Origin: an uncultured Opitutaceae bacterium
GTDB taxonomy: Bacteria > Verrucomicrobiota > Verrucomicrobiia > Opitutales > Opitutaceae
Length of the DNA stretch: 64,000 nucleotides
Assembly (NCBI GenBank): GCA_903916755.1
Contig: CAIWXW010000109.1
Span: forward strand, 1 to 64,000
Direction: 5' to 3'
Shown here: positions 7,646 through 11,791 of the stretch, in pieces
Position numbering within the stretch: position 1 is the stretch's first letter
How the letters are laid out: each line of letters opens with the position of its first letter
Program-made: the position numbers and the translations under genes
Notes under the pieces: generated by a model
What the model was told of the DNA's origin: nothing
Seen by the model: the letters and a program-made list of their open reading frames with translations, nothing else
Databases searched by the model: none

Positions 7646-7848
7646 ATCAACCCGTTCTCGCGGGCCAGGGCGCACTTCACCCTCCTGCCCCGCGGTCCGT
7701 CAATTGAGGGCCGCCTCAGCCTGACAGGGTGGATTTGCGCTGAATTGCGCCTCGGTTGACAGGAACCTGGCAGGAATTTTCGCGCTAAGGCCGGGTGCTT
7801 GGTTGGTCTGAACCCCCAGGATGCCTCGCCGTGTGAGCGGAGATCGCC

Positions 7849-10615: not shown

Positions 10616-10643
10616 GAGATTGGTGCAGATGCCGGGAGTCGAA
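10616..10643. repeat. Direct repeat copy 1: displaced 3' end of tRNA-Arg (putative att remnant)
   Basis: GAGATTGGTGCAGATGCCGGGAGTCGAA, identical to 11712-11739. Confidence 0.9.
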
Positions 10644-10838
10644 ACCGGCACAACTAGGTTTTATAATTAACTCTGAATCAGACCCATCTGGAATTTCGAT
10701 CGGATGGGAGAGTCGGTCAACTTGGCAGGGCACGGCAGGATTTTGCACCAAGTGGCATGAATGTTGACAGGAATCGGACAGGAATTTCTGGGCATGGGCC
10801 TCCGGGGTCCAAAGGCTCAATATCAAATGCCGATCGGG

Positions 10839-11174
10839 CTAAGCGAAGTACTGTTCCAGAGCGTCAATCAGGACCGGAATATCCATGGTCGCCGTCTTCC
10901 ACACCTGATCGAGATCAACCTCTCCATAATCGTGGGCGATAATGTTCCGCATCCCTCTCATACCGCGAAACGGTATTTTCGGGAAAAGAGCCTGTGTCTC
11001 CGGAGATACGCGGCTGGCAGCCTCGCCAACGATCTCAATGCGTCGCAGCACGGCGTCCTGCTTCTCCATGTTGGCCACGAAGGACTCCTCAGTCATTCCA
11101 GCGATGTACGCCCGGATCTGGCGAGACGAGTCCAGCATGTCGCGCAGCAATCCCGCTTGCTTCTCATCGGGCAT
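10839..11174 (-). CDS. hepT: HepT-like HEPN toxin (type VII TA)
   Basis: 111 aa with RNIIAHDY (RX4HXY) motif; 11-nt overlap with upstream mntA. Confidence 0.9.
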   Translation of the reverse strand: MPDEKQAGLLRDMLDSSRQIRAYIAGMTEESFVANMEKQDAVLRRIEIVGEAASRVSPETQALFPKIPFRGMRGMRNIIAHDYGEVDLDQVWKTATMDIPVLIDALEQYFA

Positions 11175-11493
11175 AGAGGGTGACGGGATTTGCGAGAATG
11201 GCCCGTCGGCGGTAGGGATTGCGGCTTCGTTCGACGGCACGTCGGCTGAGCAGGTCCACGTGGCAACCAAGGCGGTCTTCCAAGTCTTCTTTCAAAGCAC
11301 CCATCTCAACCAGGCCGGCATTTGCACCCGGCAGATATTCAACCATAAGATCAACGTCGCTGTTCGAACGGGCTTCTCCTCGCGCGACCGAACCAAATAC
11401 CTCCATGCGCGCGATCGGAAGCTCCGCGCACACGGCACGCAAGACTGCGCGCAGAGTGTCGAATGATACGGACGATGACGGCGATTCTTGCAC
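11164..11493 (-). CDS. mntA: MntA-like minimal nucleotidyltransferase antitoxin
   Basis: GSVARGEARSNSDVDL = GSX10DXD motif; probable GTG start at 11493. Confidence 0.87.
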   Translation of the reverse strand: MQESPSSSVSFDTLRAVLRAVCAELPIARMEVFGSVARGEARSNSDVDLMVEYLPGANAGLVEMGALKEDLEDRLGCHVDLLSRRAVERSRNPYRRRAILANPVTLYAR

Positions 11494-11711
11494 GCATCGA
11501 CATTGCGACGAATCGCCGGCTTTGGCAACGCGACAATGAAGCCCAATCGGCGGCCTAATTTTCCTAACCGCAAGAACTCCGCGCGCGGGACGGCGAGGGA
11601 GCCAGCCGCCATCTCGAAATTCTCCAGACCTGGTCCTCACGCTAAGCCTCGACCAACATTGTCGCTCTGACTCGAGTCGATTAGAGACCCGTTTGCCGTC
11701 GCGGTCGCGAC

Positions 11712-11739
11712 GAGATTGGTGCAGATGCCGGGAGTCGAA
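11712..11739. repeat. Direct repeat copy 2, covering the 3' end of tRNA-Arg (putative att site)
   Basis: GAGATTGGTGCAGATGCCGGGAGTCGAA, identical to 10616-10643. Confidence 0.9.
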
Positions 11740-11791
11740 CCCGGATCGATGGCTTCGGAGGCCACAACACTATCCATTGTGCTACATCTGC
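11717..11791 (-). tRNA. tRNA-Arg(CCG), CCA encoded
   Basis: GCAGATG/CATCTGC acceptor stem, anticodon loop CTCCGAA, T-arm CCGGGTTCGACTCCCGG, 3' ACCA. Confidence 0.93.

Follow-up and report, generated by a model that had tools for sequence, protein, structure and literature searches.

The 64,000-nucleotide window analysed here (contig CAIWXW010000109.1 of an uncultured Opitutaceae bacterium) carries, beside an intact tRNA-Arg(CCG) gene, a 1.1-kb islet that we interpret, at a probability of roughly 60%, as an integrase-less remnant, comparable to a cis-mobilizable element (CIME), of a tyrosine-recombinase integrative element that targeted the 3' end of this tRNA gene. It derives from a family of tRNA/tmRNA-targeting elements found across the order but has no integrase, and the landmark that links it to this family is an array of short iterons (10721–10791) lying just inside the displaced tRNA copy, which the preliminary description of the locus did not mention.

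A toxin–antitoxin pair between two copies of a tRNA 3' end

The 28-bp direct repeat GAGATTGGTGCAGATGCCGGGAGTCGAA, reported previously for this locus, was recovered as exact copies at 10616-10643 and 11712-11739, separated by 1,096 bp from start to start and extending to 33 bp with one mismatch (10616–10648 versus 11712–11744). ARAGORN likewise agreed with the earlier reading that the second copy consists of the CCA end, acceptor strand and T-arm of tRNA-Arg(CCG) plus 5 bp of flank, and that the first copy has no tRNA body. A 23-nt pattern taken from the repeat, with at most one mismatch allowed, matches the 3.35-Mb assembly at these two positions and nowhere else. The displaced copy ends in an element-side core (..TCGAAACCGG, versus ..TCGAACCCGG at the tRNA itself, plus strand), and this core, as ..GAAATCGG/GAAACCGG, is found in other members of the iteron-array family. 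The GC content of the islet is 56.9%, against a window median of 68.1%, and only 0.3% of same-length windows from this region are lower.

Pfam matches to HepT and MntA fill the interval on the minus strand, and no integrase lies between the repeats, as had been described. The claim that the interval holds essentially only a toxin–antitoxin (TA) pair needs qualification: mntA and hepT are its sole genes, but 10698-10796 is occupied by a conserved iteron array (Table 1).

HepT is an RNase toxin and MntA an adenylyltransferase that silences it, and in type VII systems toxicity is neutralised by polyadenylylation. The likely reading frames of the two genes overlap by 11 bp, both products score over the Pfam cut-offs (PF01934, PF01909), and the translations keep intact the RX4HXY motif of the HEPN toxin (RNIIAHDY) and the GSX10DXD motif of the MNT antitoxin (GSVARGEARSNSDVD), the two motifs that define type VII HepT/MntA (PMC7641770). 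By families, motifs and adjacent overlapping genes the pair thus belongs with that system; it departs from it in scoring under the curated NCBIfam equivalog cut-offs of 60 (HepT 42.6 bits, MntA 38.2 bits), in an activity predicted from sequence, and in being the sole cargo of an att-bounded islet.

Table 1. Features of the tRNA-Arg(CCG) islet and its surroundings (window coordinates).
Feature	Position	Strand	Evidence
Second, weaker iteron array, same orientation	7731..7786	+	R1 E=3e-4; R2 E=1.8e-6 (outside R2 training)
Displaced tRNA-Arg 3' end (attR core)	10616..10648	-	Repeat match; 23-nt pattern search
P'-arm iteron array	10698..10796	+	R1 2.7e-20, R2 1.7e-18 (training member of both models)
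hepT, predicted HEPN RNase toxin	10839..11174	-	PF01934 2.6e-25; NCBIfam HepT 4.7e-11; likely frame with start ATG 11174, stop 10839
mntA, predicted minimal nucleotidyltransferase antitoxin	11164..11493	-	PF01909 1.6e-12; PDB 1wot 5.5e-12; likely frame with start GTG 11493, stop 11164
tRNA-proximal islet end, without P-arm iterons and TCGTTGAYTAAAA-like core	11494..11711		Iteron/core comparison
tRNA-Arg(CCG), intact, with the tRNA-side attachment site (attL) in its 3' part	11717..11791	-	ARAGORN; identical 28-bp repeat

An iteron array accompanies displaced RNA-gene ends

Comparison of the islet interior with 37 relatives gave short DNA matches only, and no exact empty site was recovered; the DNA that can be aligned is mostly 65-76% identical, with flanking synteny lost. 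The best of these short matches is the iteron array itself, the sole clear hits of the interior as a DNA query falling at 10734–10787 in three sister genomes and consisting of a run of ~10–11-bp iterons with a terminal GACAGGAATCGGACAGGAATT. The window's array comprises about six ~10-11-bp units, the last two being perfect copies of GACAGGAAT placed 11 bp apart. Such an array is preceded by a displaced tRNA-Arg(CCG) 3' end in the window and in sister genome G003, by that of tRNA-Gly(TCC) in G002 and G008, and by a tmRNA-like end in G001.

We searched 252 genomes of the family with a model built from array sequence alone (R1, 8 training sequences, E<=0.01), which gave matches in 34 genomes and 15 of 49 genera. 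Among the 21 independent matches (those outside the training set, with the second array of the window left out), 12 were preceded, at a distance of up to about 120 bp, by the tail of a tRNA or tmRNA (no more than 4 of 22 positions mismatched, in most cases 0–1), against 1/21 on the flipped strand and 6/126 in random windows of the same loci, some of these six being real tails or tRNAs. One independent match lies inside a tRNA-Arg(CCG) islet in G009 that had already been found through its repeat. Matches to a broader model (R2) reach other families of the order, with tmRNA, tRNA-Leu and tRNA-Ser tails beside several of them. The window islet has the layout of this family, an RNA-gene tail and then the array within about 130 bp.

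The array is best understood as a set of putative binding sites for an integrase or an accessory protein; a role as TA operator was rejected, the array being downstream of the cargo genes in both the window and G003. In two species, homologous TIR-TPR proteins of about 650 aa are encoded beside the array and a tail of tRNA-Gly(TCC) type (L128 9338-11785, L094 5436-7650), possibly as a defence gene carried as cargo.

The genome contains just one further array match, 2.9 kb from that of the islet and upstream of a Na+/H+ antiporter gene, which together with a glycosyltransferase gene separates the two arrays. No recognisable tRNA tail precedes this second array, and in five relatives the glycosyltransferase is not beside the antiporter. 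Tentatively, the second array may be what is left of an earlier tandem insertion at this site that extended to the islet.

Autonomous elements and their integrase

In related genera the GACAGGAAT iteron pair occurs together with a tyrosine recombinase in autonomous elements of 7–10 kb. A complete example of about 7.2 kb lies at ssrA in G226 (L136), reading tail, array, cargo, integrase and tmRNA, with the array at its distal end. It has in common with the islet the displaced RNA-gene tail followed by the same array, and differs from it in size, in P-arm iterons, in a 435-aa tyrosine recombinase that adjoins the tmRNA, and in a BT4734-like/primase-like protein. No relaxase or conjugation genes were recognised among the G226 genes examined, and the autonomous element examined showed no TA pair at its array end. 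Relatives of the G226 recombinase (47–74% identity) abut tmRNA, tRNA-Gly(CCC), tRNA-Arg(CCT) and tRNA-Arg(CCG), the last, in G109, being the target used in the window. There, one contig (C315) carries the integrase, two P-arm iterons and tRNA-Arg(CCG), and another (C219) the matching Arg tail and array; we infer that they are two halves of one element.

At six of ten intact close-clade loci, two GACAGGAAT iterons stand ~52 and ~41 bp from the RNA gene, in the gap that separates it from the integrase start, a layout seen in none of the distant integrases examined. These P-arm iterons and a TCGTTGAYTAAAA-like core flank the RNA gene in autonomous elements, and by analogy with lambda-type att sites the iteron would serve the integrase, or an accessory protein, as an arm-type site. 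Three close-clade integrases at tRNA-Arg(CCT) (L179, L183, L185) lack GACAGGAAT P-arm iterons and may use a different arm sequence. Elsewhere, G007 has two tRNA-Arg(CCG) genes on separate contigs (L047, C139; L048, C57), one of them abutting a distant integrase (27% identity). Cerasicoccus maritimus (Verrucomicrobiota, Opitutia) is among the named carriers of integrase relatives. No close integrase turned up in viral contigs or phage records, where the similarity was only about 25% identity, to Akkermansia phages. The searches suggest that this integrase/iteron system is distributed across an order of Verrucomicrobiota-related bacteria, and we found no description of it in the literature searched.

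Because the iteron array stands by displaced tails and the same iteron by integrase genes, one of them at tRNA-Arg(CCG), the repeat pair of the window is an attL/attR pair. The array ties the islet to autonomous tyrosine-recombinase elements and so bears out the original proposal of a minimal non-autonomous (or integrase-lost) element. The distal copy without a tRNA body could in principle reflect an ancient partial tRNA duplication, or a chance repeat, unrelated to mobile elements and to the gain of the TA pair, a case that the preliminary description had set against its own proposal. We regard it as highly improbable given that independent tRNA/tmRNA tails adjoin the same array in many genomes, that a single clade of integrases is found beside those kinds of RNA gene, and that the islet has an element-side core and foreign GC.

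Compact cassettes in sister species

Integrase-less TA cassettes at tRNA-Arg(CCG) and tRNA-Gly(TCC) in sister species further support a non-autonomous element. At tRNA-Arg(CCG), which has gltX upstream in six sister genomes, the cargo is mntA-hepT in the window (1,096 bp), a PIN/antitoxin vapBC-like pair in G009 (1,072 bp; L051, named by PF01850 and position only, the antitoxin having no Pfam/NCBIfam match), and a histidine kinase with response regulators in G003 (4.8 kb). At tRNA-Gly(TCC), four genomes (G005, G008, G009, G011) carry a yefM-relE-like pair with an array; three others (G002, G004, G007) share the upstream gene and have no yefM-relE cassette in the sequence compared. Since the four cassettes sit at a single orthologous site and the distal tail is gone from three of them, they probably descend from one old insertion, vertically inherited. 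No exact empty site was found at tRNA-Gly(TCC) either, the genes past the distal end differing between cassette and cassette-free genomes. None of the small islets of the genus encodes a close-clade integrase, and neither the window islet nor the other small islets checked have P-arm iterons.

The other TA islets that we found carry other pairs, and the search for further tRNA-flanked hepT islets that the preliminary description had proposed found none: 0/29 family HepT homologues examined are tRNA-bounded or near an array, and HepT was rejected as a marker of such islets. In G003 (C44, L231 327-1501), an exact 23-nt tRNA-Gly(TCC) tail lies 1,174 bp from the intact tRNA, and the interval encloses a ThuA-like gene and no recognisable array.

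This last interval, the 29 HepT homologues outside such islets, and the tendency of tRNA hotspots to collect unrelated DNA would all suit an ordinary degraded genomic island that acquired mntA-hepT separately, independently of the integrase system. We consider such an origin improbable, since the 1.1 kb accommodate array, displaced tail, TA pair and tRNA with hardly any sequence left over, and other TA pairs are found in the same arrangement.

Stranded remnant or mobile passenger

The two alternatives left side by side in the preliminary description, integrase loss and a minimal non-autonomous design, do not fare equally. A stranded remnant kept by its TA pair is most likely, because the integrase-side iterons are lacking and no close-clade integrase that could act in trans was found in any of 13 genomes of the genus. 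The islet's own genome likewise gave no match to the clade integrase, in an assembly that is 93% complete and could therefore miss one. On the remnant reading, such an integrase would once have joined attP to the tRNA 3' end, so that the tRNA was restored and its original tail came to lie at 10616, and later deletion would have removed the integrase, the P-arm and most of the cargo. The mntA-hepT pair would have been kept, probably because its loss exposes the cell to residual toxin; addiction is a plausible reason for such retention. The islet would now probably be immobile unless a related integrase entered the cell.

The islet resembles the cis-mobilizable elements, or CIMEs (PMC5704250), which derive from an ICE or IME and are mobilised in cis once accretion has taken place, in being bounded by putative attL and attR sites at a tRNA 3' end, with only mntA-hepT and no integration or transfer genes between its ends, and with possible tandem accretion, at which the second array alone hints. 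Its core repeats and P'-array are retained; it differs from a CIME in the missing tRNA-side (P) arm and in measuring only 1.1 kb with a single TA pair. As to an ICE/IME origin, autonomous relatives carry an integrase and a primase-like gene, and the parent-type element examined showed no ICE/IME transfer module. Integrase-less ssrA islands of Dehalococcoides have also been proposed as CIMEs (PMC3146451); they are comparable as tandem islands with ssrA 3'-end repeats for boundaries, some of them devoid of an integration module, and they differ in their serine recombinase, bacterial group and reductive dehalogenase genes. In G209 (L186 9357-10838), an integrase-less element at ssrA has a degenerate integrase immediately past its tail, apparently as a tandem accretion.

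Against a remnant stand the good preservation of the P'-array and the recurrence of similarly compact cassettes with TA pairs of different families; pure decay would not obviously predict either. The missing empty site, the incomplete assembly and the TA pair not seen at the array end of the autonomous element also weigh against it. A specialised class of non-autonomous cassettes is in our view on balance doubtful; here one-armed, TA-only units would move as minimal circles, and integrases supplied by autonomous relatives would integrate them in trans, recognising the P'-array as the arm. In its favour, compact islets recur at tRNA-Arg(CCG) and tRNA-Gly(TCC) with mntA-hepT, vapBC and yefM-relE; P-arm iterons are missing from all of them, most keep the array, and the degenerate integrase of G209 adjoins an integrase-less element at ssrA. 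That no close-clade integrase was found in the 13 genomes of the genus speaks against it, as does the single orthologous site of the four yefM-relE cassettes, three of them tail-less, which is what vertical inheritance and decay would give; moreover, we saw no case of near-identical cassettes at two separate sites. That such one-armed cassettes spread between tRNA/tmRNA sites in trans, borrowing an integrase from larger resident elements in the way that integron cassettes rely on one encoded separately, seems unlikely to us.

A stranded remnant remains our preferred reading. Tail, core and iteron array together provide a defined attachment-site signature for recognising islets without an integrase. 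That different TA pairs have repeatedly survived on their own between attachment-site remnants makes it directly testable whether such pairs preserve mobile elements that are dying or travel as minimal passengers.
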